64,000 nt of DNA from Olleya sp. YS (GTDB taxonomy: Bacteria > Bacteroidota > Bacteroidia > Flavobacteriales > Flavobacteriaceae), in the NCBI RefSeq assembly GCF_029760915.1, contig NZ_CP121685.1, positions 2,815,001 through 2,879,000 of the forward strand. Direction: 5' to 3'. Shown one piece after another: positions 3,001 through 64,000 of this stretch; within the stretch, counting starts at the first letter, position 1, and each line of letters starts with the position of its first letter. The notes under the pieces were generated by a model that searched no databases, was not told the origin of the DNA, and saw nothing but the letters and a program-made list of their open reading frames with translations. A program made the translations under genes and the position numbers.

Positions 3001-6000
3001 AATACTGGTAATGTGTCTATCGATACTATAGTCCTTACCGATCCTTTATTAGAAGCACCTAACCCTGTCGTTACTATTGCATTCGCCTCTGGGGATACCG
3101 ATAACGATAACGAATTAGATCCTACCGAAACGTGGACCTATACCGCTAACTATGCAGTGACGCAATCGGATATTGATGCTGGTCAGGTGACTAACCAAGC
3201 AACCGTGACGGGACAAAACGTCTTAACCGATGCGGTGGTGACTGACCTATCTGGTACTACTGCAACTACGGACGATGCGACGGTTATTACCTTATGTCAA
3301 GGGGATACCACCATTGCGCTTGTCAAGTCTGGAATCTTTAATGATGAAGATCAAGATAACTGTACAGATGTGGGAGAAACCATCTCATACACCTTTACTG
3401 TAACTAATACTGGTAATGTGTCTATCGATACTATAGTCCTTACCGATCCTTTATTAGAAGCACCTAACCCTGTCGTTACTATTGCATTCGCCTCTGGGGA
3501 TACCGATAACGATAACGAATTAGATCCTACCGAAACGTGGACCTATACCGCTAACTATGCAGTGACGCAATCGGATATTGATGCTGGTCAGGTGACTAAC
3601 CAAGCAACCGTGACGGGACAAAACGTCTTAACCGATGCGGTGGTGACTGACCTATCTGGTACTACTGCAACTACGGATGATGCGACGGTTATTACCTTAT
3701 GTCAAGGGGATACCACTATCGCTCTTGTCAAGTCTGGAATCTTTAATGATGAAGATCAAGATAACTGTACAGATGTGGGAGAAACCATCTCATACACCTT
3801 TACTGTAACTAATACTGGTAATGTGTCTATCGATACTATAGTCCTTACCGATCCTTTATTAGAAGCACCTAACCCTGTCGTTACTATTGCATTCGCCTCT
3901 GGGGATACCGATAACGATAACGAATTAGATCCTACCGAAACGTGGACCTATACCGCTAACTATGCAGTGACGCAATCGGATATTGATGCTGGTCAGGTGA
4001 CTAACCAAGCAACCGTGACGGGACAAAACGTCTTAACCGATGCGGTGGTGACTGACCTATCTGGTACTACTGCAACTACGGACGATGCGACGGTTATTAC
4101 CTTATGTCAAGGGGATACCACCATTGCGCTTGTCAAGTCTGGAATCTTTAATGATGAAGATCAAGATAACTGTACAGATGTGGGAGAAACCATCTCATAC
4201 ACCTTTACTGTAACTAATACTGGTAATGTGTCTATCGATACTATAGTCCTTACCGATCCTTTATTAGAAGCACCTAACCCTGTCGTTACTATTGCATTCG
4301 CCTCTGGGGATACCGATAACGATAACGAATTAGATCCTACCGAAACGTGGACCTATACCGCTAACTATGCAGTGACGCAATCGGATATTGATGCTGGTCA
4401 GGTGACTAACCAAGCAACCGTGACGGGACAAAACGTCTTAACCGATGCGGTGGTGACTGACCTATCTGGTACTACTGCAACTACGGATGATGCGACGGTT
4501 ATTACCTTATGTCAAGGGGATACCACCATTGCGCTTGTCAAGTCTGGAATCTTTAATGATGAAGATCAAGATAACTGTACAGATGTGGGAGAAACCATCT
4601 CATACACCTTTACTGTAACTAATACTGGTAATGTGTCTATCGATACTATAGTCCTTACCGATCCTTTATTAGAAGCACCTAACCCTGTCGTTACTATTGC
4701 ATTCGCCTCTGGGGATACCGATAACGATAACGAATTAGATCCTACCGAAACGTGGACCTATACCGCTAACTATGCAGTGACGCAATCGGATATTGATGCT
4801 GGTCAGGTGACTAACCAAGCAACCGTGACGGGACAAAACGTCTTAACCGATGCGGTGGTGACTGACCTATCTGGTACTACTGCAACTACGGATGATGCGA
4901 CGGTTATTACCTTATGTCAAGGGGATACCACCATTGCGCTTGTCAAGTCTGGAATCTTTAATGATGAAGATCAAGATAACTGTACAGATGTGGGAGAAAC
5001 CATCTCATACACCTTTACTGTAACTAATACTGGTAATGTGTCTATCGATACTATAGTCCTTACCGATCCTTTATTAGAAGCACCTAACCCTGTCGTTACT
5101 ATTGCATTCGCCTCTGGGGATACCGATAACGATAACGAATTAGATCCTACCGAAACGTGGACCTATACCGCTAACTATGCAGTGACGCAATCGGATATTG
5201 ATGCTGGTCAGGTGACTAACCAAGCAACCGTGACGGGACAAAACGTCTTAACCGATGCGGTGGTGACTGACCTATCTGGTACTACTGCAACTACGGACGA
5301 TGCGACGGTTATTACCTTATGTCAAGGGGATACCACCATTGCGCTTGTCAAGTCTGGAATCTTTAATGATGAAGATCAAGATAACTGTACAGATGTGGGA
5401 GAAACCATCTCATACACCTTTACTGTAACTAATACTGGTAATGTGTCTATCGATACTATAGTCCTTACCGATCCTTTATTAGAAGCACCTAACCCTGTCG
5501 TTACTATTGCATTCGCCTCTGGGGATACCGATAACGATAACGAATTAGATCCTACCGAAACGTGGACCTATACCGCTAACTATGCAGTGACGCAATCGGA
5601 TATTGATGCTGGTCAGGTGACTAACCAAGCAACCGTGACGGGACAAAACGTCTTAACCGATGCGGTGGTGACTGACCTATCTGGTACTACTGCAACTACG
5701 GATGATGCGACGGTTATTACCTTATGTCAAGGGGATACCACCATTGCGCTTGTCAAGTCTGGTCTCTTTAATGATGAAGATCAAGATAACTGTACAGATG
5801 TGGGAGAAACCATCTCATACACCTTTACTGTAACTAATACTGGTAATGTGTCTATCGATACTATAGTCCTTACCGATCCTTTATTAGAAGCACCTAACCC
5901 TGTCGTTACTATTGCATTCGCCTCTGGGGATACCGATAACGATAACGAATTAGATCCTACCGAAACGTGGACCTATACCGCTAACTATGCAGTGACGCAA

Positions 6001-6547
6001 TCGGATATTGATGCTGGTCAGGTGACTAACCAAGCAACCGTGACGGGACAAAACGTCTTAACCGATGCGGTGGTGACTGACCTATCTGGTACCACTGCAA
6101 CTACGGATGATGCGACGGTTATTACCTTATGTCAAGGGGATACCACCATTGCGCTTGTCAAGTCTGGTCTCTTTAATGATGAAGATCAAGATAACTGTAC
6201 AGATGTGGGAGAAACCATCTCATACACCTTTACTGTAACTAATACTGGTAATGTGTCTATCGATACTATAGTCCTTACCGATCCTTTATTAGAAGCACCT
6301 AACCCTGTCGTTACTATTGCATTCGCCTCTGGGGATACCGATAACGATAACGAATTAGATCCTACCGAAACGTGGACCTATACCGCTAACTATGCAGTGA
6401 CGCAATCGGATATTGATGCTGGTCAGGTGACTAACCAAGCAACCGTGACGGGACAAAACGTCTTAACCGATGCGGTGGTGACTGACCTATCTGGTACTAC
6501 TGCAACTACGGATGATGCGACGGTTATTACCTTATGTCAAGGGGATA
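1..6547 (+). repeat. Tandem array of 405-bp units (135 aa), 16 full copies plus a partial
   Basis: The phrase actgacctatctggtac recurs at 1, 406, 811 and every 405 bp to 6481. Copies differ at only a few sites: gatgat/gacgat, ccaccattgcg/ccactatcgct, ggaatc/ggtctc (Ile/Leu) and one tactac/taccac. The array continues past the left edge, so the true copy number is unknown. Confidence 0.98.
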
Positions 6548-9500
6548 GTTCTTTAGAAATTGTAAAATCTGCTACTATTGCTAATGGTGATCCGTGTATT
6601 GTCCTTGGTAGTGAAGTAACATATACATTTACTGTAACTAATACTGGTACAGTTTCTATCAATAATATTACAATTACTGATGATTTATTAGGTGGTGATA
6701 TTACTGCTTCATTAACTCTTACTGGTGATACCAATGCTAATGGTGTGCTTGAACCTACTGAAACTTGGATCTTTACTGCTCCTAATTATACAGTAACTCA
6801 AGCGGATGTTGATGCTGGTAGCATTACTAATACTGTGACTGTAGATGGATCAGACACTAATTCAATTTCTGTTTCTAATACAGATACTTACATCATTGAT
6901 CAGAATAATCCTGATGTGACTTTCTGTGATCCTACAACTGGTATAAACATTGTTAAAGCTGCAACTATTGCTAATGGTGATCCGTGTATTGTCCTTGGTA
7001 GTGAAGTAACATATACATTTACTGTAACTAATACTGGTACAGTTTCTATCAATAATATTACAATTACTGATGATTTATTAGGTGGTGATATTACTGCTTC
7101 ATTAACTCTTACTGGTGATACCAATGCTAATGGTGTGCTTGAACCTACTGAAACTTGGATCTTTACTGCTCCTAATTATACAGTAACTCAAGCGGATGTT
7201 GATGCTGGTAGCATTACCAATACAGTTGTTGCGGATGGTATTGAAATTCTTGGTGGTACTGATGTGTCTGATACAGATACTTACATCATTGATCAGAATA
7301 ATCCTGATGTGACTTTCTGTGATCCAACTACTGGTATAAACATTGTTAAAGCTGCAACTATTGCTAATGGCGATCCGTGTATTGTCCTTGGTAGTGAAGT
7401 AACATATACATTTACTGTAACTAATACTGGTACAGTTTCTATCAATAATATTACAATTACTGATGATTTATTAGGTGGTGATATTACTGCTTCATTAACT
7501 CTTACTGGTGATACCAATGCTAATGGTGTGCTTGAACCTACTGAAACTTGGATCTTTACTGCTCCTAATTATACAGTAACTCAAGCGGATGTTGATGCTG
7601 GTAGCATTACTAATACTGTGACTGTAGATGGATCAGACACTAATTCAATTTCTGTTTCTAATACAGATACTTACATCATTGATCAGAATAATCCTGATGT
7701 GACTTTCTGTGATCCTACAACTGGTATAAACATTGTTAAAGCTGCAACTATTGCTAATGGTGATCCGTGTATTGTCCTTGGTAGTGAAGTAACATATACA
7801 TTTACTGTAACTAATACTGGTACAGTTTCTATCAATAATATTACAATTACTGATGATTTATTAGGTGGTGATATTACTGCTTCATTAACTCTTACTGGTG
7901 ATACCAATGCTAATGGTGTGCTTGAACCTACTGAAACTTGGATCTTTACTGCTCCTAATTATACAGTAACTCAAGCGGATGTTGATGCTGGTAGCATTAC
8001 CAATACAGTTGTTGCGGATGGTATTGAAATTCTTGGTGGTACTGATGTGTCTGATACAGATACTTACATCATTGATCAGAATAATCCTGATGTGACTTTC
8101 TGTGATCCAACTACTGGTATAAACATTGTTAAAGCTGCAACTATTGCTAATGGCGATCCGTGTATTGTCCTTGGTAGTGAAGTAACATATACATTTACTG
8201 TAACTAATACTGGTACAGTTTCTATCAATAATATTACAATTACTGATGATTTATTAGGTGGTGATATTACTGCTTCATTAACTCTTACTGGTGATACCAA
8301 TGCTAATGGTGTGCTTGAACCTACTGAAACTTGGATCTTTACTGCTCCTAATTATACAGTAACTCAAGCGGATGTTGATGCTGGTAGCATTACCAATACA
8401 GTTGTTGCGGATGGTATTGAAATTCTTGGTGGTACTGATGTGTCTGATACAGATACTTACATCATTGATCAGAATAATCCTGATGTGACTTTCTGTGATC
8501 CAACTACTGGTATAAACATTGTTAAAGCTGCAACTATTGCTAATGGCGATCCGTGTATTGTCCTTGGTAGTGAAGTAACATATACATTTACTGTAACTAA
8601 TACTGGTACAGTTTCTATCAATAATATTACAATTACTGATGATTTATTAGGTGGTGATATTACTGCTTCATTAACTCTTACTGGTGATACCAATGCTAAT
8701 GGTGTGCTTGAACCTACTGAAACTTGGATCTTTACTGCTCCTAATTATACAGTAACTCAAGCGGATGTTGATGCTGGTAGCATTACCAATACAGTTGTTG
8801 CGGATGGTATTGAAATTCTTGGTGGTACCGATGTGTCTGATACAGATACTTACATCATTGATCAGAATAATCCTGATGTGACTTTCTGTGATCCGATAGG
8901 AGAAATAAATCTAGTTAAAACAGGAATTTTTAATAATGATAACGGAAATAATTGTACAGAAGTTGATGAGACTATTACTTATACTTTCGTCGTAACAAAT
9001 ACAGGAACTGTTTCATTAGGAAATGTAGTTATAACAGATCCTCTTCTTAACAATGCTACTCCTCCTGTATCTATTGATTATGTATCTGGTGATACAGATG
9101 GAGACAACCAATTAGATTTAAATGAAACCTGGACGTTTACTGCAACTTACTTAGTTACTCAAGGAGATATTGATGCTACAGAAGTGGTTAATACTGCCAC
9201 AGTAACTGCAGAAATGGTAGTTAATGGAAATATTGTTTCAGATACTTCTCAAACAACAACAGATTTAATTGAAGATATCACTCCTCCAGATACTTCTAAT
9301 TGTCAAGTGCTGGATGAAACTATTGAATGTGATGGTACAAACAATGAAACTTTAGCAGATGCATGGAATGCTGCTAATATCTTAGCATTAGAAAATTGTG
9401 CAACTGATGAGTGTGATAATAACTTTGTTGTTACTTCTGACTATGATTTTGCAAACTTAATTTCAGGATGTGGAGCTACTGGTTCAATAACAGTAACTTA

Positions 9501-12360
9501 CACATTAACAGATGCTACAGGTAATTCAAGTACTTTTACAGCTACATTAACTATTGAAGATACATCAAGTCCTAGTTTTACAGTTCCTGATGATATAACT
9601 ATTAACTGTGATCAAGATCCAAACGATTTAATGCTTACAGGAGATGTAACTACTGAAACTGATAGCTGTAGTGGTCCTCTTGAAGCAACCTATTTAGATG
9701 CTATTACAGCTGGATCTTGTGCTAACGAATCTGTAATTACTAGAACATGGACATTAACAGATGAGTGTAACAACACGACTACTTTAGTGCAAACTATTAC
9801 TGTGGTAGACACTACTGCTCCAACGTTTACAGTGCCTGCAGATGTGACTATCGAGTGTAGTGATGACGAAACTGATTTATCACTTACAGGTGATGTAACA
9901 GATGAAAACGATAACTGCTCGACTGGTTTAGAAGCAACCTATTCAGATGCTGTTGCTACTGGTTCTTGTGCTAACGAATCTGTAATTACTAGAACGTGGA
10001 CATTAACAGACGAGTGTAACAATACGACTACTTTAGTTCAAACTATTACTGTGGTAGACACTACTGCTCCAACGTTTACAGTGCCTGCAGATGTAACTAT
10101 CGAGTGTAGTGATGACGAAACGGATTTATCACTTACTGGTGATGTAACTGATGAAACTGATAACTGTTCAACTGGTTTAGAAGCAACCTATTCAGATGCT
10201 GTTGCTACTGGTTCTTGTGCTAACGAATCTGTAATTACTAGAACGTGGACATTAACAGACGAATGTAACAATACGACTACTTTAGTTCAAACTATTACTG
10301 TTGTAGATACTACTGCGCCTACGTTTACAGTGCCTGCAGATGTGACTATCGAGTGTAGTGATGACGAAACGGATTTATCACTTACAGGTGATGTAACAGA
10401 TGAAAACGATAACTGCTCGACTGGTTTAGAAGCAACCTATTCAGATGCTGTTGCTACTGGTTCTTGTGCTAACGAATCTGTAATTACTAGAACGTGGACA
10501 TTAACAGACGAGTGTAACAATACGACTACTTTAGTTCAAACTATTACTGTTGTAGACACTACTGCTCCAACGTTTACAGTGCCTGCAGATGTGACTATCG
10601 AGTGTAGTGATGACGAAACGGATTTATCACTTACTGGTGATGTAACTGATGAAACTGATAACTGTTCAACTGGTTTAGAAGCAACCTATTCAGATGCTGT
10701 TGCTACTGGTTCTTGTGCTAACGAATCTGTAATTACTAGAACGTGGACATTAACAGACGAATGTAACAATACGACTACTTTAGTTCAAACTATTACTGTT
10801 GTAGATACTACTGCGCCTACGTTTACAGTGCCTGCAGATGTGACTATCGAGTGTAGTGATGACGAAACGGATTTATCACTTACAGGTGATGTAACAGATG
10901 AAAACGATAACTGCTCGACTGGTTTAGAAGCAACCTATTCAGATGCTGTTGCTACTGGTTCTTGTGCTAACGAATCTGTAATTACTAGAACGTGGACATT
11001 AACAGACGAGTGTAACAATACGACTACTTTAGTTCAAACTATTACTGTTGTAGACACTACTGCTCCAACGTTTACAGTGCCTGCAGATGTGACTATCGAG
11101 TGTAGTGATGACGAAACTGATTTATCACTTACAGGTGATGTAACAGATGAAAACGATAACTGCTCGACTGGTTTAGAAGCAACCTATTCAGATGCTGTTG
11201 CTACTGGTTCTTGTGCTAACGAATCTGTAATTACTAGAACGTGGACATTAACAGACGAGTGTAACAACACGACTACTTTAGTGCAAACTATTACTGTGGT
11301 AGACACTACTGCGCCTACGTTTACAGTGCCTGCAGATGTAACTATCGAGTGTAGTGATGACGAAACGGATTTATCACTTACTGGTGATGTAACAGACGAA
11401 AACGATAACTGTTCAACTGGTTTAGAAGCAACCTATTCAGATGCTATTGCTGCTGGATCTTGTGCTAACGAATCTGTGATTACTAGAACATGGACATTAA
11501 CAGACGAGTGTAACAATACAACAACACTTGTTCAAACTATATCAGTTGTAGATACAGCAGGTCCTACATTAATTACTCCTTTAGATTTACCAAGTAGTGT
11601 GATTTGTTCTAATGTACCAGAAGTTCCAGAGTTATCATTTGAAGATGATTGTTCAACAAATAACATTAATGTAGTATTTGAAGAAACATCAACTTTCACT
11701 GGAACTGAAGAAATCTACGATTTGATATGGACTTGGACTGCTACAGATGACTGTGGTAATGACACAGTAATTACGCATACAATTAACGTTGTAACTGAGA
11801 ACTTTACTGAAGAAATTGAAGCAGATAGATGTACCGAAGATGGATTAATTGATCTTTATGAATTCCTACCTGATGGAGCAGATACATTTATAGAATGGGT
11901 TGTAGTCACCGATGGAATAACAATAATTGATGGTATCTTTGATCCACTAGAGGTTGAAATCGGAGATTATGTATTTACCTATACGGTTTCTAATAACGGG
12001 TGTTTAAATACTTATGAAGTAACTATTCATGTTAATGAAGATTGTATAGTATTACCTTGTGGTGAAGACGATTTAAAAATTTCTAAAGCAGTAACGCCAA
12101 ATGGAGATAGTTATAACGAATTCTTCACAGTTGGTGGTGTTGAAGAATGTGGATTTATTGTAGATATTAAAATATTTAACCGTTTTGGTGATATTGTTTT
12201 CGAATCTAGAGACTATCAAAATGATTGGAATGGACAAAGTCCAAGTGGATCTGTAGGTTCCGCTGGAAGATTACCAAACGGTACATACTATTATGTTATA
12301 GATATAAAGGATAGTGGTATCAAACCATTAGCTGGCCCTATTTACTTAGGAACTAAATAA
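1..12360 (+). CDS. Giant T9SS-secreted repeat adhesin (SprB-like), 5' end outside window
   Basis: The frame is open from base 1, so the gene is cut by the left edge; 4119 residues are visible. Order of modules (residues counted from base 1): about 16 copies of a 135-residue DUF11-type repeat (1-2182), six 130/131-residue repeats (about 2190-2965), one related module (to about 3090), a spacer, eight 83-residue HYR-like repeats with four Cys each (about 3192-3855), an Ig/PKD-like stretch, and a C-terminal gliding-motility-associated domain (about 4020-4119, TPNGDSYNEFF, FNRFGDIVFES, NGTYYYVID). Such C-terminal domains direct T9SS export in Bacteroidota and usually need a SprF/PorP-type partner, which is the next gene (9 bp gap). 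DUF11-type repeats carry an acidic loop of form DxDxDxxxD, suggesting calcium-stiffened rods. The likely role is a filamentous surface adhesin for gliding or attachment; cargo specificity is inferred. An internal GTG at 130 is not the true start. Confidence 0.9.
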   Translation, partial: TDLSGTTATTDDATVITLCQGDTTIALVKSGLFNDEDQDNCTDVGETISYTFTVTNTGNVSIDTIVLTDPLLEAPNPVVTIAFASGDTDNDNELDPTETWTYTANYAVTQSDIDAGQVTNQATVTGQNVLTDAVVTDLSGTTATTDDATVITLCQGDTTIALVKSGIFNDEDQDNCTDVGETISYTFTVTNTGNVSIDTIVLTDPLLEAPNPVVTIAFASGDTDNDNELDPTETWTYTANYAVTQSDIDAGQVTNQATVTGQNVLTDAVVTDLSGTTATTDDATVITLCQGDTTIALVKSGIFNDEDQDNCTDVGETISYTFTVTNTGNVSIDTIVLTDPLLEAPNPVVTIAFASGDTDNDNELDPTETWTYTANYAVTQSDIDAGQVTNQATVTGQNVLTDAVVTDLSGTTATTDDATVITLCQGDTTIALVKSGIFNDEDQDNCTDVGETISYTFTVTNTGNVSIDTIVLTDPLLEAPNPVVTIAFASGDTDNDNELDPTETWTYTANYAVTQSDIDAGQVTNQATVTGQNVLTDAVVTDLSGTTATTDDATVITLCQGDTTIALVKSGIFNDEDQDNCTDVGETISYTFTVTNTGNVSIDTIVLTDPLLEAPNPVVTIAFASGDTDNDNELDPTETWTYTANYAVTQSDIDAGQVTNQATVTGQNVLTDAVVTDLSGTTATTDDATVITLCQGDTTIALVKSGIFNDEDQDNCTDVGETISYTFTVTNTGNVSIDTIVLTDPLLEAPNPVVTIAFASGDTDNDNELDPTETWTYTANYAVTQSDIDAGQVTNQATVTGQNVLTDAVVTDLSGTTATTDDATVITLCQGDTTIALVKSGLFNDEDQDNCTDVGETISYTFTVTNTGNVSIDTIVLTDPLLEAPNPVVTIAFASGDTDNDNELDPTETWTYTANYAVTQSDIDAGQVTNQATVTGQNVLTDAVVTDLSGTTATTDDATVITLCQGDTTIALVKSGIFNDEDQDNCTDVGETISYTFTVTNTGNVSIDTIVLTDPLLEAPNPVVTIAFASGDTDNDNELDPTETWTYTANYAVTQSDIDAGQVTNQATVTGQNVLTDAVVTDLSGTTATTDDATVITLCQGDTTIALVKSGIFNDEDQDNCTDVGETISYTFTVTNTGNVSIDTIVLTDPLLEAPNPVVTIAFASGDTDNDNELDPTETWTYTANYAVTQSDIDAGQVTNQATVTGQNVLTDAVVTDLSGTTATTDDATVITLCQGDTTIALVKSGIFNDEDQDNCTDVGETISYTFTVTNTGNVSIDTIVLTDPLLEAPNPVVTIAFASGDTDNDNELDPTETWTYTANYAVTQSDIDAGQVTNQATVTGQNVLTDAVVTDLSGTTATTDDATVITLCQGDTTIALVKSGIFNDEDQDNCTDVGETISYTFTVTNTGNVSIDTIVLTDPLLEAPNPVVTIAFASGDTDNDNELDPTETWTYTANYAVTQSDIDAGQVTNQATVTGQNVLTDAVVTDLSGTTATTDDATVITLCQGDTTIALVKSGIFNDEDQDNCTDVGETISYTFTVTNTGNVSIDTIVLTDPLLEAPNPVVTIAFASGDTDNDNELDPTETWTYTANYAVTQSDIDAGQVTNQATVTGQNVLTDAVVTDLSGTTATTDDATVITLCQGDTTIALVKSGIFNDEDQDNCTDVGETISYTFTVTNTGNVSIDTIVLTDPLLEAPNPVVTIAFASGDTDNDNELDPTETWTYTANYAVTQSDIDAGQVTNQATVTGQNVLTDAVVTDLSGTTATTDDATVITLCQGDTTIALVKSGIFNDEDQDNCTDVGETISYTFTVTNTGNVSIDTIVLTDPLLEAPNPVVTIAFASGDTDNDNELDPTETWTYTANYAVTQSDIDAGQVTNQATVTGQNVLTDAVVTDLSGTTATTDDATVITLCQGDTTIALVKSGLFNDEDQDNCTDVGETISYTFTVTNTGNVSIDTIVLTDPLLEAPNPVVTIAFASGDTDNDNELDPTETWTYTANYAVTQSDIDAGQVTNQATVTGQNVLTDAVVTDLSGTTATTDDATVITLCQGDTTIALVKSGLFNDEDQDNCTDVGETISYTFTVTNTGNVSIDTIVLTDPLLEAPNPVVTIAFASGDTDNDNELDPTETWTYTANYAVTQSDIDAGQVTNQATVTGQNVLTDAVVTDLSGTTATTDDATVITLCQGDSSLEIVKSATIANGDPCIVLGSEVTYTFTVTNTGTVSINNITITDDLLGGDITASLTLTGDTNANGVLEPTETWIFTAPNYTVTQADVDAGSITNTVTVDGSDTNSISVSNTDTYIIDQNNPDVTFCDPTTGINIVKAATIANGDPCIVLGSEVTYTFTVTNTGTVSINNITITDDLLGGDITASLTLTGDTNANGVLEPTETWIFTAPNYTVTQADVDAGSITNTVVADGIEILGGTDVSDTDTYIIDQNNPDVTFCDPTTGINIVKAATIANGDPCIVLGSEVTYTFTVTNTGTVSINNITITDDLLGGDITASLTLTGDTNANGVLEPTETWIFTAPNYTVTQADVDAGSITNTVTVDGSDTNSISVSNTDTYIIDQNNPDVTFCDPTTGINIVKAATIANGDPCIVLGSEVTYTFTVTNTGTVSINNITITDDLLGGDITASLTLTGDTNANGVLEPTETWIFTAPNYTVTQADVDAGSITNTVVADGIEILGGTDVSDTDTYIIDQNNPDVTFCDPTTGINIVKAATIANGDPCIVLGSEVTYTFTVTNTGTVSINNITITDDLLGGDITASLTLTGDTNANGVLEPTETWIFTAPNYTVTQADVDAGSITNTVVADGIEILGGTDVSDTDTYIIDQNNPDVTFCDPTTGINIVKAATIANGDPCIVLGSEVTYTFTVTNTGTVSINNITITDDLLGGDITASLTLTGDTNANGVLEPTETWIFTAPNYTVTQADVDAGSITNTVVADGIEILGGTDVSDTDTYIIDQNNPDVTFCDPIGEINLVKTGIFNNDNGNNCTEVDETITYTFVVTNTGTVSLGNVVITDPLLNNATPPVSIDYVSGDTDGDNQLDLNETWTFTATYLVTQGDIDATEVVNTATVTAEMVVNGNIVSDTSQTTTDLIEDITPPDTSNCQVLDETIECDGTNNETLADAWNAANILALENCATDECDNNFVVTSDYDFANLISGCGATGSITVTYTLTDATGNSSTFTATLTIEDTSSPSFTVPDDITINCDQDPNDLMLTGDVTTETDSCSGPLEATYLDAITAGSCANESVITRTWTLTDECNNTTTLVQTITVVDTTAPTFTVPADVTIECSDDETDLSLTGDVTDENDNCSTGLEATYSDAVATGSCANESVITRTWTLTDECNNTTTLVQTITVVDTTAPTFTVPADVTIECSDDETDLSLTGDVTDETDNCSTGLEATYSDAVATGSCANESVITRTWTLTDECNNTTTLVQTITVVDTTAPTFTVPADVTIECSDDETDLSLTGDVTDENDNCSTGLEATYSDAVATGSCANESVITRTWTLTDECNNTTTLVQTITVVDTTAPTFTVPADVTIECSDDETDLSLTGDVTDETDNCSTGLEATYSDAVATGSCANESVITRTWTLTDECNNTTTLVQTITVVDTTAPTFTVPADVTIECSDDETDLSLTGDVTDENDNCSTGLEATYSDAVATGSCANESVITRTWTLTDECNNTTTLVQTITVVDTTAPTFTVPADVTIECSDDETDLSLTGDVTDENDNCSTGLEATYSDAVATGSCANESVITRTWTLTDECNNTTTLVQTITVVDTTAPTFTVPADVTIECSDDETDLSLTGDVTDENDNCSTGLEATYSDAIAAGSCANESVITRTWTLTDECNNTTTLVQTISVVDTAGPTLITPLDLPSSVICSNVPEVPELSFEDDCSTNNINVVFEETSTFTGTEEIYDLIWTWTATDDCGNDTVITHTINVVTENFTEEIEADRCTEDGLIDLYEFLPDGADTFIEWVVVTDGITIIDGIFDPLEVEIGDYVFTYTVSNNGCLNTYEVTIHVNEDCIVLPCGEDDLKISKAVTPNGDSYNEFFTVGGVEECGFIVDIKIFNRFGDIVFESRDYQNDWNGQSPSGSVGSAGRLPNGTYYYVIDIKDSGIKPLAGPIYLGTK
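6574..8895 (+). repeat. Tandem array of six 390/393-bp units
   Basis: Six copies start with actattgctaatgg, spaced 390, 393, 390, 393, 393 bp. Two unit types differ near their ends: A encodes VTVDGSDTNSISVSNT and B encodes VVADGIEILGGTDVSDT. The order is A-B-A-B-B-B. Within types, copies are nearly identical. Confidence 0.95.
9574..11564 (+). repeat. Tandem array of 249-bp HYR-like units (83 aa), eight copies
   Basis: The phrase gtttacagtgcctgcagatg recurs every 249 bp from about 9825. Seven copies are near-identical and are preceded by one diverged copy from 9574. Each unit has four Cys (TIEC, DNC, GSC, DEC). A DEN/DET difference runs DEN, DET, DEN, DET, DEN, DEN, DEN along the seven close copies. 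Confidence 0.95.
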
Positions 12361-57728: not shown

Positions 57729-58373
57729 ATGACATTAGTAGGAAAAAAATTCCCTAACCTAAACGTTACTGCAACTGACAAAACTGGTCAAAATCAAACG
57801 ATTAACATTTTAGAAGAAGCACAAAAAAACAATAAAAAAGTGATCTTATTCTGGTACCCAAAAGACTTTACTTTTGTTTGCCCAACAGAATTATATGCTT
57901 TTGAAGCTGCTGTAGCAGCATTTGAAAAACGTAATACTATTGTTATTGGTGCGTCTTGTGATACGCCAGAGGTACACTTTGCATGGTTAAACACACCAAA
58001 AAACCAAGGAGGCATCCAAGGTGTTAGCTACAAATTAATTGCAGATAGTAACCGTAATTTAGCCTCTACATTAGGTATTTTAGATATTACTAATGAGACT
58101 TACAACGAAGAAACTGGTGTAGTAACCGTTGAAGGTGATAACGTAACCTACAGAGCGACCTATTTAATTGACGAAGAAGGCACTGTATTTCATGAAGGCG
58201 TAAACCATATGCCTGTTGGAAGAAACGTCTCAGAATTTTTACGTTTAATAGATGCTTATGCACACGTACAAGAAAACGGAGAGGTATGTCCTGCAAACTG
58301 GCAAGAAGGTGATACAGCCATGACAGCAAACAGAGATGGTGTTGCCGAGTATTTAGCTGCACACGTTAACTAA
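57729..58373 (+). CDS. Typical 2-Cys peroxiredoxin (AhpC/TSA)
   Basis: A 214-residue protein with the peroxidatic motif FTFVCPTEL (Cys51) and the resolving Cys187 in GEVCPANW, both present, so it is a functional 2-Cys form. A further Cys77 lies in GASCDTPEVHFAW. It reduces hydrogen peroxide and organic peroxides. Together with katG on the far side of the accessory segment it forms an oxidative-stress neighbourhood. Own promoter and terminator. Confidence 0.95.
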   Translation: MTLVGKKFPNLNVTATDKTGQNQTINILEEAQKNNKKVILFWYPKDFTFVCPTELYAFEAAVAAFEKRNTIVIGASCDTPEVHFAWLNTPKNQGGIQGVSYKLIADSNRNLASTLGILDITNETYNEETGVVTVEGDNVTYRATYLIDEEGTVFHEGVNHMPVGRNVSEFLRLIDAYAHVQENGEVCPANWQEGDTAMTANRDGVAEYLAAHVN

Positions 58374-58395
58374 TACACACACTGTTAATAACTAT

Positions 58396-58429
58396 AAAAA
58401 CCACTTTGCGACAGCAAGGTGGTTTTTTT
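58396..58429 (+). terminator. Terminator of the peroxiredoxin gene
   Basis: aaaccactttgc pairs with gcaaggtggttt (one wobble) around a gaca loop, followed by T's. It lies 22 bases past the stop and marks the left border of the accessory segment. Confidence 0.88.
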
Positions 58430-58526
58430 GTTTGAAAATTTTATCTTTACGTGATAAGGACAACTAAAAAGATTTTTATCTCGATTTATTTATGGGATAT
58501 AGATAGTAAAAGTTGTTATGTAACTA

Positions 58527-58538
58527 GTTGGCAACAAT
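58527..58538 (+). repeat. Module-boundary repeat, left of gene at 58546
   Basis: GTTGGCAACAAT, 8 bases before the start codon, matches GTTGACAACAAT at 59428-59439 just after the same gene (11 of 12 bases), so the gene is bracketed by a direct repeat. Confidence 0.5.
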
Positions 58539-58545
58539 ATGAAAA

Positions 58546-59400
58546 ATGAACATTGACGAGAAAACTATAATCAAATATTTTGATATTATAATCAAAGAGC
58601 TTGATGATGTATCTTTTTTCAGTGTAAACAACATTCTTATTGACAATAAGCATCTTAAAATCGACACTAAAGAGGAAAGAGAATACCTTTTTGAATTAAC
58701 CAACAAAATTAAAACCTTAGGAATTTCAAGAGGCTATTTCCAAAAAAATGGTGAAAACGGATGGCTGGAATTGACTGTAAAAGGTATAGAATTAAAAGAC
58801 TCTAAAAAAGGATTTCTCAAATTTATAAAAGATTCAAAAACTAAATCGGAATCAACATTCGATAAAATTATTTTCTATTTTAAAAACAACAGAATAATAG
58901 CCGTACTTCTTTTTGTTGTTTTCGTGATATTTATTGGATCTAAAGCCTTCAATGAATTTTCAAAAGCAAAAGAAAACATAGAGAAAATAAATGGTTCTTC
59001 TGACAAATCTAGCGTTGAAAGTGATTATAAAAACGAGACTATAAAAGATACTGTAGAATTATTGAGTCCAAAGATTGTTGATAGCTTAGAATTACCATAT
59101 TTAAAAAACACACCAATTTTAGATAAAGGTATATTTTTTAGTTATTCCTATAATAATTTACTAATTGGCGGTGCAAATATTGACTCTATTAAAATTAATG
59201 CTAGAACATATGACGGACAAAAATTGAAGTTTAGAAAGTACGATGAGAAATTAGAATTTGATATAACGGAACAGCCATACATAGAATTGGAATATAAAGA
59301 AACTATTTATTCTTTTGAAATAATCGGAAAACATTACTCTTTTGATTGTATTATAACAAAAGATATAGTCCCTACACTGAACCTAATTGAAGTTAATTAA
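58546..59400 (+). CDS. Hypothetical membrane protein with small N-terminal domain
   Basis: A 284-residue protein, no known family. Residues 1-100 resemble a small winged-helix-like domain with a KNGENGWLELTVKGIELKD segment, a pattern also seen in other uncharacterised Bacteroidota proteins. One membrane helix lies at about 117-131 (IIAVLLFVVFVIFIG). The C-terminal half is Lys/Glu-rich then beta-rich. An ATG follows a short leader; no good promoter was found. Bracketed by related boundary repeats, it may be a mobile single-gene module. Confidence 0.75.
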   Translation: MNIDEKTIIKYFDIIIKELDDVSFFSVNNILIDNKHLKIDTKEEREYLFELTNKIKTLGISRGYFQKNGENGWLELTVKGIELKDSKKGFLKFIKDSKTKSESTFDKIIFYFKNNRIIAVLLFVVFVIFIGSKAFNEFSKAKENIEKINGSSDKSSVESDYKNETIKDTVELLSPKIVDSLELPYLKNTPILDKGIFFSYSYNNLLIGGANIDSIKINARTYDGQKLKFRKYDEKLEFDITEQPYIELEYKETIYSFEIIGKHYSFDCIITKDIVPTLNLIEVN

Positions 59401-59596
59401 TTGTGTATCTGATTTATTAAAAATACTGTTGACAACAATGTATATAATTCATGCTTTACTTCTACTTCAATTTAAAATCTTATATTTAAACAACTGATTT
59501 GCTACATCTGAAAATCCTACGGATTCTCAGCCGCACAAATCATACACAATCACGTTGGCAGTCATTTAAAACCAATCTAAAGAACAAAAAACAGAT
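59401..59596. other. Spacer with cassette-like boundary modules (after gene 58546)
   Basis: It begins with a 3' module (GTTGACAACAATGTATATAA), contains an AAAATCC-ta-CGGATT inverted repeat (about 59511-59525), and ends with a 5' module (CATACACAATCACGTTGGCA). The spacer at 61045-61212 has the same order of elements. No coding sequence was seen. Confidence 0.55.
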
Positions 59597-60283
59597 ATGA
59601 ACGATTTATTTATTTCGATCGAATACAACAATCGAGAATTTGATGGAATTGAGGATTTTAAATCAAGTTTATCTGAAAACTACCATCATCAAATTAGACC
59701 TAAATGGATTCCTGCTTGTTCTGAAGGTGCAGAATTTTGGATAACCGTTTTTGTGAATACAGGAATTGCGGACTTTATTAAAGGCGCTATTGCTGGTGGA
59801 TTAGTTTGGGATTTAATAAAATTTGGAGGAAAAAAATATGTTTTTACACCACTTTATAAAGCTTTAGAAAAACTGAATAAAGACAATTCAAAAAATTGGG
59901 GCGGACTGAAAGTGTTGAAATATAAACTTCAATTTGATGATTGTGTAATACAAATTGGAGGAGTCAATAAAAACTTCACATCCATTTTCTCTACTGTATT
60001 CAATGAAATAGCGAAGAGAAAACCTGAATTTGAAAATGAAATCGGACAGGAAGTAATTAAAATCGAATTGCCAATAGAATTTATGGAACATTTTGAAAAT
60101 GTGAACGAACAATTTTCGCTTGATATTTATAACGAAGACTATTCTATAAAAGCTTTCAAAAATTTATGGAGAGTAACTTTTTCAACTGAATTTCCGATTA
60201 TGATTTACAGCTTTACCGAAAAGAAATTATTTGAACCAAAAGAAATGTCAGACAAATTAAAAACGCCTACCAATAATGTATAA
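59597..60283 (+). CDS. Hypothetical protein paired with an HNH endonuclease
   Basis: A 228-residue protein with a soluble N-terminus, a hydrophobic or amphipathic helix (about 47-75, FIKGAIAGGLVWDLIKFG) and a mixed alpha/beta C-terminal half. No family was recognised. It ends 5 bases before the HNH gene, so the two form a transcriptional pair. A membrane-touching partner beside a nuclease is an arrangement seen in anti-phage systems, but nothing here proves that role. Confidence 0.7.
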   Translation: MNDLFISIEYNNREFDGIEDFKSSLSENYHHQIRPKWIPACSEGAEFWITVFVNTGIADFIKGAIAGGLVWDLIKFGGKKYVFTPLYKALEKLNKDNSKNWGGLKVLKYKLQFDDCVIQIGGVNKNFTSIFSTVFNEIAKRKPEFENEIGQEVIKIELPIEFMEHFENVNEQFSLDIYNEDYSIKAFKNLWRVTFSTEFPIMIYSFTEKKLFEPKEMSDKLKTPTNNV

Positions 60284-60288
60284 CCGAA

Positions 60289-61044
60289 ATGAATAAAAGA
60301 AATATTTTTGATGCTATTGAAAAATCTAGCAATAAAATTTTTGGCGGAAAAGACGGTCTTATAAAAAGAATAAAGTCAGCTAAAAATTATGTAGCTAATG
60401 ATAATTTTACCGAATGGGCATTTTCGAAATTAGTGGCAACTGAAAATTTTAATATTAATTCTGGCTCATCATCTAAACCCTTTTTCTACACTCATAACTT
60501 TGTAAACGTTTTAGAGATTAATGACAAAAAATTTAAGAATGAAGTTATCGAAAAATTTTTAAAATGGTCTGACAAAGTTGAATATATTGATATTAGAAAA
60601 AAATTTGATACTGACCAAAAAGACAAAAAACGATTTGAACTTTTAGTACATACAGATTTGGTTCCAGAAAAAATCAAAAAGAAACAAAATTTTTCAGCTA
60701 ATAATCAAAATGAATTCTTGGAAGGTTTTAAAAGAGAAATCAAAACTGAGAATAGTTATCGAAGTCAAAAATTAGTCAAGTTGGCAAAAGAAAAATACGG
60801 AACCGAATGTATAGTTTGTGGATTTAGTTTCGAACATAAATATGGTCAACACGGAAAGGATTTTATAGAAATACATCATTTATTACCAATAGAAAACGGT
60901 ATACGAAAATCGACAATCGAAGATGTAGCACCAGTTTGTTCAAATTGTCATCGAATGTTACATAAAGGAAAAATAATGCTTTCAATTGAATACCTGAAAG
61001 AAATTATAGAACGAGAAAAAGCCAGCAGGCAACACCGTATTTAA
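60289..61044 (+). CDS. HNH endonuclease
   Basis: A 251-residue protein. The C-terminal 85 residues form an HNH nuclease: zinc Cys pairs Cys174/Cys177 (ECIVCGF) and Cys217/Cys220 (PVCSNCHRMLH), and the catalytic IEIHHLLP with His196-His197; His221 and His225 follow. The N-terminal 150 residues are Lys/Asn-rich and unrecognised, probably a specificity or sensor domain. The layout resembles McrA-like or other restriction nucleases. It is probably co-transcribed with the preceding gene. Confidence 0.9.
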   Translation: MNKRNIFDAIEKSSNKIFGGKDGLIKRIKSAKNYVANDNFTEWAFSKLVATENFNINSGSSSKPFFYTHNFVNVLEINDKKFKNEVIEKFLKWSDKVEYIDIRKKFDTDQKDKKRFELLVHTDLVPEKIKKKQNFSANNQNEFLEGFKREIKTENSYRSQKLVKLAKEKYGTECIVCGFSFEHKYGQHGKDFIEIHHLLPIENGIRKSTIEDVAPVCSNCHRMLHKGKIMLSIEYLKEIIEREKASRQHRI

Positions 61045-61212
61045 TTTATTGTCATTTCTATACTACTACTAAAATCCTTACGGATTTTCTATTTGGTTTT
61101 TATTTGTTAAGTTAGTTGATTAATCACGCTACAAAACATATACAAACAAATTGCTGAATTAAAGTCTAACAATTTTTTTATAAATTTAAACTGAATTTAA
61201 AACGAATAAATT
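61045..61212. other. Spacer with cassette-like boundary modules (after the HNH gene)
   Basis: Elements in order: CAGGCAACACCGTAT TTAATTTATT at 61026-61050 (overlapping the end of the HNH gene), the inverted repeat AAAATCC-tta-CGGATTTT (about 61072-61090) and CATATACAAACAAATTGCTG (61138-61157). These align with the elements of the spacer at 59401-59596. Confidence 0.55.
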
Positions 61213-61842
61213 ATGATAGAAATCGGGCAAGGAGGAGCTGGGAGAGTTTTTAGAATTAATGAAACAACTGTGGAAAAAACAGTAAAATTAACTAAAACAC
61301 CCACTATTGAAACAAAAGAATTTATAAAAAATAATATCATTAATATTTTCAACAACTCAATTTATAATGTTAAATCCATTCGATTTTTTGAAAAAAACGC
61401 AATAATTAGTTGGGATTATATTTCAGGAATAACTCTTGAGAGTTATATTAATCAAGGGTTTAAATTAAATACTTACCAAATAGATTCAATATATAAAGCT
61501 CTTGAACATCTAACTTCAATAAACGTAAATCACGGAGATATTTCGGCTTCGAATATTTTGATTACAGATAAAAAAGAAATTAAATTAATTGATTTTAGAT
61601 TATTAGACTCTAACAACGAAGACATAACATCATATACAAATATTGATGTTAATACAATCACCAGAGCTAATATTACCCGTAGAAATGTTACGCGTAGGAA
61701 TATTACTCGAGGTGTAAAAGCAGAAAGTTTTATTACAAGAAGGAATATAACTCGTGGACAAGTTACTAGAGCCAATTTTAGTTTCATCAACATTAATGAT
61801 TTAAATTCTTTTGAGAATTTAAAAATTAAACTTGCCATTTAA
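61213..61842 (+). CDS. Miniature protein kinase with five-residue Thr-Arg repeat tail
   Basis: A 209-residue protein. Kinase features: glycine loop GQGGAGRV (5-12), a likely ATP Lys near 22-25, the catalytic loop HGDISASNI (His107, Asp109, Asn114) and a metal Asp127 in IDFR in place of DFG. The N-lobe is short, and the C-lobe stops soon after this Asp, about half the usual length. Residues 150-189 are eight five-residue units with X-N-I/V/F-T-R: TRANI, TRRNV, TRRNI, TRGVK, AESFI, TRRNI, TRGQV, TRANF, resembling pentapeptide repeats but with Arg in the usually small inner position. An adjacent membrane protein starts 5 bases after its stop. Activity, target and function are unknown. Confidence 0.8.
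   Translation: MIEIGQGGAGRVFRINETTVEKTVKLTKTPTIETKEFIKNNIINIFNNSIYNVKSIRFFEKNAIISWDYISGITLESYINQGFKLNTYQIDSIYKALEHLTSINVNHGDISASNILITDKKEIKLIDFRLLDSNNEDITSYTNIDVNTITRANITRRNVTRRNITRGVKAESFITRRNITRGQVTRANFSFININDLNSFENLKIKLAI
61660..61779 (+). repeat. Degenerate 15-bp repeat coding the kinase tail
   Basis: Eight 15-base units encode the five-residue motifs TRxN[IVF]. Codons for Thr and Arg vary between units (cgt, cga, aga, agg), so the repeat is kept at protein level and not by recent DNA duplication. Confidence 0.8.
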
Positions 61843-61847
61843 AAATT

Positions 61848-62528
61848 ATGAGTGATTCTAATGAAGAAAGTATACATATTTCTAAAGATGGAGTTAAACT
61901 TTCTTATTACAGATATGTGTCAGAAAGTACTCCTGGTTTTCTTTTTGTTTTAATCTCAATTGTATATTTGAAATTAGCTCAATTTGGAATAGTCTCTTCT
62001 GAATTAACAAACATCTTTCTTAAAATAAAATTAAGTGAAGATTTTAAAATCGTGTTAATCTTTATTTTATTTATAATAGCAATGCCAATTGGTGGACTTA
62101 TATCAGCAATTAGTTATTATTTTTTCGGCTGGATTGAAGTTTTACTTCTTAAAATTATCGTTAGGTTTAATTTGTTTTTGACAATACTGCCTAAACGAGC
62201 ATATGATTACAATAAAATAAAAAACAATTATGATTTAAATTCAAATAATTTTCTAAATAAAGGCTATAAAATCCAAAGAAAGAATGAGGTTTTAAACAAT
62301 AAAATAAGTAAAATTGGAATAAAAGCCAATAGAACTTTTGCTAGGAATCTGATTTTTGTTTTTGTATACTTTTTTCTTTTACTATCAATTAACCTTTCAG
62401 GACTTAATTTACTATTATCTAGTATCCTAATTTTATTAATAGTTGTTTTTTTAGGCTTAATATGTGCATTAGAATTATTTGTAAGCCATCTGAATATTTT
62501 TTTAGCCGATTATAATTCTAATAAATAA
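61848..62528 (+). CDS. Four-helix membrane protein paired with the miniature kinase
   Basis: A 226-residue protein: two helices (about 30-45 and 66-90, GFLFVLISIVYLKLAQFG, VLIFILFIIAMPIGGLI), a basic cytoplasmic-type loop (about 105-165, Lys/Asn-rich) and two more helices (about 165-215). No family was recognised. The gene begins 5 bases after the kinase gene, suggesting a kinase/membrane module; the loop could be its substrate or regulator (inference). Confidence 0.75.
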   Translation: MSDSNEESIHISKDGVKLSYYRYVSESTPGFLFVLISIVYLKLAQFGIVSSELTNIFLKIKLSEDFKIVLIFILFIIAMPIGGLISAISYYFFGWIEVLLLKIIVRFNLFLTILPKRAYDYNKIKNNYDLNSNNFLNKGYKIQRKNEVLNNKISKIGIKANRTFARNLIFVFVYFFLLLSINLSGLNLLLSSILILLIVVFLGLICALELFVSHLNIFLADYNSNK

Positions 62529-62562
62529 ATACTACACACAAAATCCACATACTACAAATTAA

Positions 62563-62594
62563 AAAGAGACCCTACTTAAAAATAGGGTCTCTTT
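62563..62594 (-). terminator. Terminator of katG
   Basis: aaagagacccta and tagggtctcttt form a perfect 12-bp stem with an 8-base loop. On the minus strand five T follow; it also shields the accessory operon. It marks the right border of the accessory segment. Confidence 0.88.
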
Positions 62595-62615
62595 AGTTAT
62601 ATTATAATGTATTAT

Positions 62616-64000
62616 CTACTTTAAATCAAAGCGGTCTGCATTCATCACTTTGGTCCATGCAGCCACAAAGTCTTTTACAAACTTGTCGTTACCATCATTG
62701 GCACCATAGACTTCTGCTATTGCTCTAAGCTCTGTATTAGATCCAAAAATTAAGTCTGCTCGTGTTCCAGAAAACTTCATAGCATTTGTTCTACGATCGC
62801 GACCAATAAATTCTTTTTCTTCTGGTGTTACAGCTTTCCAAGTAATTGCAAAATCTAACAAATTGGTAAAGAAATCGTTAGTTAAATGCTCAACATTATC
62901 TGTAAATACACCATGTTTAGACCCATCATAATTTGCACCTAACACTCTAAGTCCACCTACTAAAACTGTCATTTCTGGAATGGATAATCCCATTAAATTG
63001 GCTCTATCGACTAGTAAATCTTCAGCTTTAACGTTTAGATTAGATTTAATATAGTTTCTAAACCCATCTGCTAACGGTTCTAAGTATCCAAACGATTCTA
63101 AATCGGTTTGTTCTTGTGTGGCATCACCACGACCTTGAGCAAACGGTACAGAAATGTTGTGACCTGCATTTTTAGCTGCTTCTTCGATTCCTGCATTTCC
63201 TCCTAAAACAATTAAATCTGCAATAGAGACATCTCCACTAAAATCGTTTTGTATAGCTTCGTAAGTCTTTAACACTTTATCTAATTCTGCTGGATTGTTC
63301 ACTTCCCAACTACGTTGTGGCTCTAAACGTAAACGTGCTCCATTAGCACCACCACGTTTATCAGAGTTTCTAAACGTAGAGGCAGATGCCCAAGCAGTAG
63401 TCACTAATTGAGAGATGCTTAACCCTGAAGCTAAAATCATTTTTTTAAGCAACGTAATATCTGCATCACTTAAGGTATAATCTACCGTTGGAATTGGGTC
63501 TTGCCATAATAATTCTTCTTTTGGAACTTCTGGACCTAAATATCTGTGTATTGGTCCCATATCACGATGCGTTAATTTGTACCACGCTCTAGCAAATGCA
63601 TCTTCAAATGCTTTATGGTCTTTATGGAATCGCTCTGAAATCTCTCTATAGGTTGGATCCATTTTTAAAGCCATATCTGCAGTAGACATCATTAGCGCTT
63701 GCATACCCTTTCCTCCTGCTGCAGGAGCTTGAGGCGCATTTGAAGCTGCTGTTGGTGTCCATTGGTGTGCACCAGCTGGACTTTTAGTTAATTCCCATTC
63801 GTTATTTAATAACACATCAAAATACTCGTTATCCCAACGTGTTGGATGTGGTGTCCATGCACCTTCCAATCCACTAGTAATGGTATCATCTAACACACCA
63901 GAGTTAAAGTTGTTTCTCCAACCTGTGCTCATTTCTTCCATAGTAGCACCATGTGGTTCTGGACCAACATGCTTATCTGGATCTGCAGCACCATGTGCTT
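62616..64000 (-). CDS. katG: Catalase-peroxidase, 5' end outside window
   Basis: The frame stays open to the right edge, so the gene is cut; about 461 C-terminal codons are visible. The window starts at [14 protein letters not shown], which follows the proximal haem ligand motif just outside. Other KatG marks are [18 protein letters not shown], the internal ATGGWRN-like C-terminal domain with [21 protein letters not shown] (seen as [16 protein letters not shown]) and [22 protein letters not shown] (split: [14 protein letters not shown]). It breaks down hydrogen peroxide by catalase and peroxidase routes. Converges on the accessory genes and ends at a strong terminator. Confidence 0.96.

Follow-up and report, generated by a model that had tools for sequence, protein, structure and literature searches.

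A half-length protein kinase with a basic pentad tail and a membrane-protein partner: a possible compact kinase switch

The gene pair

The window, by which we mean the whole 64,000-nucleotide stretch of DNA analysed, contains a real open reading frame on its forward strand (61213-61842) that encodes a protein of 209 residues, in which a protein kinase core is followed by a ladder of five-residue units and a C-terminal end (Table 1). The gene that follows encodes a membrane protein with roughly four or five hydrophobic stretches, which matched no family in Pfam, PADLOC, PHROGs or NCBIfam; a profile search of 397 genomes of the bacterial family returned, besides the protein itself, three weak matches (E 0.004-0.009). 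The pair sits in an interval bounded by a peroxiredoxin gene and katG, where three other ORFs precede it; the genome, a single contig of 3.0 Mb, has the kinase ORF as its sole match at E up to 1.

Table 1. Features of the locus (window coordinates) and the observations that define them.
Feature	Coordinates	Strand	Description
Kinase core	61213..61632	+	Residues 1-140: Gly loop 5-10, K22 (beta3), HGDISASN 107-114, D127-F-R
Basic pentad tail	61651..61785	+	Residues 147-191, nine in-phase five-residue units; lag-5 statistics, charge count
C-terminal end	61786..61842	+	Residues 192-209 plus stop codon; the final 15 residues are the same in the ortholog; weak AF2 helix 199-208
Partner gene	61848..62528	+	226-aa multi-pass membrane protein; begins 5 nt past the kinase stop
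Shared block	61138..62541	+	1.4 kb, matches L002:842-2216, 85.7% DNA identity
Repeat element, degenerate copy	61030..61140	+	69.6% over 112 columns, E=1e-12, against the L002 element

A kinase core without most of its C-lobe

The Pfam model Pkinase (PF00069) matches residues 3-132 at E=7.2e-11 and is covered only from position 6 to position 146 of 263, which indicates that most of the C-lobe is missing. The glycine loop reads GQGGAG and the catalytic loop HGDISASN, and D127 provides the metal-binding Asp. The Pfam match and these motifs bear out the first-pass annotation, which had described a kinase that keeps the glycine loop, the HGDxxxxN loop and the metal Asp and ends where most of its C-lobe should follow. 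After D127 only 82 residues are left, 45 of which form the pentad ladder, and the features of a full Hanks-type kinase (activation segment, APE motif, helices F to I) are absent.

The protein-kinase-like superfamily is defined by ten key residues, and the region after the DFG motif diverges among its members, according to the available portion of PMC1821047. The half kinase has equivalents of G52, K72, E91, H164, D166, N171 and D184, namely G7, K22, E33 or E36 (both candidates for E91), H107, D109, N114 and D127; all are conserved in the single ortholog, L002, described below, and H107, D109, N114 and D127 are invariant across 21 aligned kinases. In this 21-row alignment T101 occupies the position of H158, and P104 has no recognisable counterpart; for D220, spacing alone suggests D145. 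A112, within HGDISASN, is replaced by Gly in the ortholog, where the key motif residues are the same.

Structure prediction, one of the checks proposed by the first-pass annotation, succeeded for the core and told little about the tail. From the two-row alignment of window protein and ortholog AF2 reached a pLDDT of 35; once 19 kinases from viral contigs were added, residues 1-140 took the fold of a kinase N-lobe plus catalytic core (block pLDDT 82-95). The added rows span the kinase only, so the alignment of the tail still has two rows and the prediction of the core leans towards ordinary kinases. The nearest solved structure, PknB of S. aureus (4eqm, 144 alignment columns), was retrieved under that same bias; this likeness of fold to PknB/Stk1-type kinases is set against the activation loop, APE motif and helices F-I that the half kinase lacks.

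Two origins for so short a kinase were rejected. That it is a truncated copy of a known kinase, the outcome named in advance as fatal to the claim, was not borne out: profile searches gave generic kinase similarity only, family models matched the generic core, and no longer close relative was found. A frameshift was set aside because no kinase C-lobe could be seen by eye in the other frames of 61600-61845.

The half kinase resembles the Bud32/RIO/KdoK proteins in its short length, its HGD catalytic loop, its missing activation segment and its weak model matches, and is unlike them in scoring under their cut-offs and in carrying a pentad ladder. Bud32 and Rio are themselves small and devoid of an activation segment, which fits the half kinase. 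We regard it as fairly unlikely, and yet worth weighing, that the protein is an ATP-binding or ATPase switch of this kind, a minimal kinase that would change shape on ATP, phosphorylate no protein, and use its Arg-rich tail to bind RNA, DNA or the partner. A Bud32 model ranks second among the NCBIfam matches of the window protein (3.7e-8) and first among those of the ortholog (1.2e-7), and D145, 18 residues past D127, could be the helix-F Asp, a weak AF2 helix being predicted at 147-165; but the best Bud32 scores of the two proteins (30-33 bits; in the window protein, 33.1 bits against a curated cut-off of 188 and 30.7 against 125) fall far short, and the best solved fold is that of an ordinary Ser/Thr kinase, albeit from an alignment biased to such kinases.

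The pentad tail

Residues 147-191 read, in register, NTITR, ANITR, RNVTR, RNITR, GVKAE, SFITR, RNITR, GQVTR and ANFSF. This stretch is rich in Thr, Arg and Asn and holds ten Arg and one Lys against one acidic residue. Residues 142-196 contain 17 identities at a lag of five, against a mean of 5.4 in shuffled sequences, and the period is far above chance, none of 100,000 shuffles having reached 17. The eight units of form xN[IVF]TR counted initially were an overcount, as four tail units follow this pattern strictly and seven the looser xx[IV]TR. Likewise, the claim that each unit offers a basophilic R-x-x-T site was overstated: Arg stands at -3 from Thr for three of the seven TR threonines (T160, T165 and T180). 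The codons do differ between units, as had been noticed, pairs of the seven TR units sharing 6-13 of 15 bases.

According to the available text of PMC7337050, a pentapeptide-repeat protein has at least eight tandem five-residue repeats, in which the residue at i-2 is uncharged or small and the centre is hydrophobic. The window protein has nine in-phase pentads and its ortholog eight, with one off-pattern unit in each (GVKAE in the window, GVNAE in L002). The centre is hydrophobic in eight of the nine pentads of the window protein; the inward i-2 position is occupied by Arg in three of them, contrary to the rule.

The profile search with the tail that had been suggested as a check gave a divided answer. 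In a phmmer search of the PDB, nine matches were obtained up to E=10, eight of them from one series of pentapeptide-repeat designs, named beta1 and variants; the repeat type can be read from four of the alignments. The best match was 5dra, with a whole-sequence E of 0.01 and an E of 8.3 for its best single stretch. The reversed tail, which has the same composition and period, gave no match in the PDB. With the tail of the ortholog the best match was again 5dra (E=0.29), and three of the seven matches came from the design series, the other four being plant lectins. Pfam returned no repeat family for the whole protein (up to E=5) or for the tail (up to E=10), thresholds at which the HMMER filters drop most weak matches. 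The HetL model of NCBIfam reached E=0.016 with the whole protein and 0.027 with the tail, that is 14-15 bits, far under its cut-off of 260, and the ortholog tail had no NCBIfam match. In the AF2 model the tail forms no strands, only the weak helix already mentioned, and residues 155-158 and 160-198 have pLDDT below 50.

These observations bear on the first-pass suggestion of a pentapeptide-repeat coil, for which the weak, forward-only likeness to PDB entries speaks and which the i-2 arginines, the silent Pfam search and the strandless model weaken; on its sequence, the tail is pentapeptide-like and not a proven member of the family. In its strongest form, this alternative holds that the tail folds into a short, right-handed quadrilateral beta-helix of about two and a half coils, which would cap the half kinase and serve as a rigid docking rod for the partner; cyanobacterial proteins that combine kinase and pentapeptide repeats may work in this way as well. 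A kinase with pentapeptide repeats is an already known layout; the hydrophobic centres and the matches to 5dra and HetL point the same way. Set against these are the charged inward positions, the sub-threshold HetL score, and the predicted tail without strands, a prediction that draws on two tail rows only. We judge such a rod unlikely on balance, if still a serious competitor.

A single ortholog and the selection acting on the pair

Six exact 8-residue patterns, run against 84,980 species genomes, yielded 280 matches and one relative, L002, from a Winogradskyella MAG. Its kinase, of 204 residues, is 85% identical to the window protein, its tail is shorter by exactly one pentad (15 nt), and it is followed by the same partner gene, the two partners being 92% identical. 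The two copies probably belong to different genera, since the window genome is absent from the 68 genomes of the genus of L002.

Selection was estimated by the Nei-Gojobori method on this one pair of sequences, and all of the following ratios depend on few sites. The dN/dS is 0.17 for the whole kinase gene, within which the core (residues 1-140) gives 0.13, residues 149-190 give 0.27 and the wider tail (141-195) gives 0.43; the partner gene has 0.08. Differences within residues 147-191 number 2, 2 and 8 at codon positions 1, 2 and 3, and all eight comparable Arg, all five Asn and five of the seven Thr are unchanged in the ortholog. The single comparison thus supports purifying selection on kinase, tail and partner, as well as the earlier proposal that the repeat is selected at the protein level, with the qualification that selection appears weaker in the tail than in the core.

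This bears on whether the gene is a remnant of an ordinary Ser/Thr kinase in decay, its low-complexity tail born of DNA slippage. Its absent C-lobe, its repetitive tail, in which a 15-nt DNA period is partly visible, its rarity, and a tail dN/dS above that of the core are what decay might leave behind. We nevertheless consider decay very unlikely in view of the low ratios for gene, repeats and partner, the third-position bias, the end and the partner, which are identical in kind in both orthologs, and the other reading frames, where no C-lobe is apparent. Slippage alone was also rejected as the origin of the tail, given that codons differ between units and that third positions change most. Judged from one comparison and few sites, the pair appears as non-decaying.

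Rarity of the arrangement

No second relative was found in the genus of the window (10 genomes, its own included), in the 68 genomes of the genus of L002, among 397 genomes of the family, among 395 of the order (exact DNA pattern) or among 395 of the phylum (profile). The family, order and phylum sets are overlapping samples, and exact patterns would miss distant relatives. Weak matches occurred in 12 other genomes of the family (L003-L014), and longer, generic kinases in 7 other genomes of the phylum (eight loci, L044-L051). Across these 20 loci, a protein search over the ORFs found a match in 17 (none for L010, L011 and L014), that in L012 being an unrelated, dehydrogenase-like ORF, and tblastn found one in 16 (none for L014, L044, L046 and L047); not one of the 20 carries three or more successive [IVLF]TR pentads. 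Of 167 loci scanned for at least three such pentads in succession, L052 and copies of the window and L002 regions were the only ones to have them.

Searches of viral contigs gave no relative with the tail (91 pattern matches), the whole protein (79), alignment A3 (218) or the kinase stretch of L005 (5). Two loci retrieved from viral contigs by a DNA pattern of the ladder were set aside: in L052 the listed open frame of a 15-nt repeat reads NEDEY, and in L053 the matching strand is not the one that encodes the (D/N)I(N/D)A repeats but its complement. The latter locus, an IMG/VR contig, holds at 7697-9492 three adjacent related genes made of (D/N)I(N/D)A-x pentads, in unit numbers that differ. 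Phages provided a single weak match (E=0.01), between kinase residues 65-128 and an unannotated record, and the plasmids searched provided no relative. A half kinase with a pentad tail is thus very rare, with two orthologs in all.

A variable genomic site and a probable mobile unit

The peroxiredoxin gene is present in 9 of the 10 genomes of the genus, the window's included. In the 8 others, 9-10 kb of sequence around or following this gene was examined. The kinase pair is absent from this stretch in all eight; katG, the next gene tpx, or both come after the peroxiredoxin gene in G001, G002 and G009 and were not seen there in the other five. The content after the peroxiredoxin gene (57729-63941 in the window; L063-L070) varies among the nine genomes, even if G006 and G007 have most of theirs in common and some of the genes turn up again elsewhere.

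Six proteins from three of the eight related genomes, chosen for their defence-like look, were submitted to family searches. In the near-identical sister G001, an Mrr restriction enzyme (PADLOC mREase_IV, 2.8e-64) stands directly after the peroxiredoxin gene, in the interval that the kinase pair occupies in the window. In G004 a Ppl-like protein (PADLOC, 8.1e-18) is encoded about 3 kb downstream; in G003 the distance is about 5 kb, to an NsnA/PD-T4-2_A-like protein (PADLOC, 7.2e-63) together with a HEPN protein (Pfam, 8.8e-15). Between them, three genomes of the genus have Mrr, GmrSD-like, HEPN and Ppl-like genes after the peroxiredoxin gene. The window itself encodes at 60289-61044 an HNH protein with weak similarity to restriction enzymes; two unknown proteins (59597-60283 and 58546-59400) adjoin it, the former with a very weak match to the Het-E N-terminal domain (E=0.18). 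As judged from these gene contents, the site is variable and holds restriction- or defence-type genes in some relatives, which is context and not proof of function.

The DNA homology between the window and L002 starts at the end of a repeat element of about 140 bp. Copies of the element bound the unit on both sides in L002 (700-840 and 2205-2345); in the window no downstream copy was seen. On this evidence the shared block is probably a mobile unit.

Relation to known kinases

Cyanobacterial Ser/Thr kinases of the SpkB type (e.g., slr1697), with C-terminal pentapeptide repeats, are described in the available parts of three papers (PMC2176072, PMC1262709, PMC2877116), and they share with the half kinase the order of a kinase core followed by C-terminal five-residue repeats (PMC2176072, PMC1262709). 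The survey of cyanobacterial kinases, in its accessible portion, left out 17 proteins without important catalytic parts and, of truncated ones, kept those with slight truncation only (PMC2176072), so the surveyed kinases would be near-complete. Compared by description, the half kinase is unlike SpkB in having no substrate lobe and in repeats that are Thr-Arg rich and match no Pfam family. The first-pass annotation, which knew of no described protein with this layout, is therefore only partly upheld: on the partial texts cited, the layout has a longer counterpart in cyanobacteria, and what is unusual is the missing kinase half. The available portions of the open-licence literature on kinase-pentapeptide proteins and minimal kinases yielded no half kinase with such a tail.

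The antiphage kinases modelled in PADLOC (PD-T4-6, MAD6, PDC-M71A) show generic kinase similarity to the half kinase, which lies at a site with defence-type genes in some relatives; their models measure 292-659 residues against 209, and nothing points to common ancestry outside the kinase core.

A proposed mechanism

The reading that we tentatively prefer, while granting it somewhat less than an even chance, is that of a two-gene unit made of a minimal ATP-dependent protein kinase, with a Thr/Arg tail in place of the substrate lobe as substrate or docking arm in cis, and a membrane partner. The tail would be a flexible, positively charged arm serving for docking and as a site of (auto)phosphorylation. 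In the unmodified state, its ten Arg could hold it on the membrane partner, on acidic lipid or on nucleic acid; phosphorylation of the ladder Thr would then cancel the charge, and the partner would be released or opened. A phage or stress response is the likely setting, in which the membrane protein would act as the effector. The difference of one whole tail unit between the orthologs fits what an array of motifs would allow, and a flexible arm agrees with the low confidence and missing strands of the tail in AF2. The anatomy is well supported; ATP binding and phosphotransfer by the kinase, control of the partner and a part in phage defence are what we infer from the genes, and half kinase and membrane partner may together form a compact kinase switch.

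Several observations count against the preferred reading. The DFG motif reads DFR; R-x-x-T is found at two of the five TR threonines in the ortholog tail, next to three of seven in the window; and the likeness to pentapeptide-repeat proteins, seen in the forward direction only, speaks for a folded tail. The ratio of 0.43 over the wider tail and the existence of only two orthologs weigh in the same direction, as do two neighbour proteins of L002 that match neither Pfam nor PADLOC. Distinctly unlikely, in our estimation, is the fullest version of the proposal, in which the Thr-Arg ladder replaces the substrate lobe and acts as a substrate tethered to its own kinase and as a charge counter, gating a membrane effector within a mobile phage-defence unit.

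Should the kinase prove active, it would show how little of a kinase suffices, without the substrate lobe, when the substrate is tethered in cis, and how a repeat of five residues can take the place of that lobe. Relatives have defence-type genes at this site, and to these the pair would then contribute a small two-gene candidate. An inactive kinase would still be an ATP-binding module that is conserved and bears an unusual basic tail.

Repeat sequences

The element of about 140 bp is imperfectly palindromic and separates small accessory genes in the manner of cassette boundaries, in L002 as well as in the window (61030-61140 and 59409-59530). Matches to it, some of them partial, number 17 in the L002 genome and 11 in that of the window. 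The single-strand DNA folding z is about -2.4 for both L002 copies, and -0.3 and -1.7 for the window copies. The element could represent either an undescribed cassette system or a dispersed repeat. Elsewhere in the window, positions 1-11552 contain very large tandem arrays, with 16 copies of a 405-bp unit at 99% matches, 6 of a 393-bp unit and 7.5 of a 249-bp unit.
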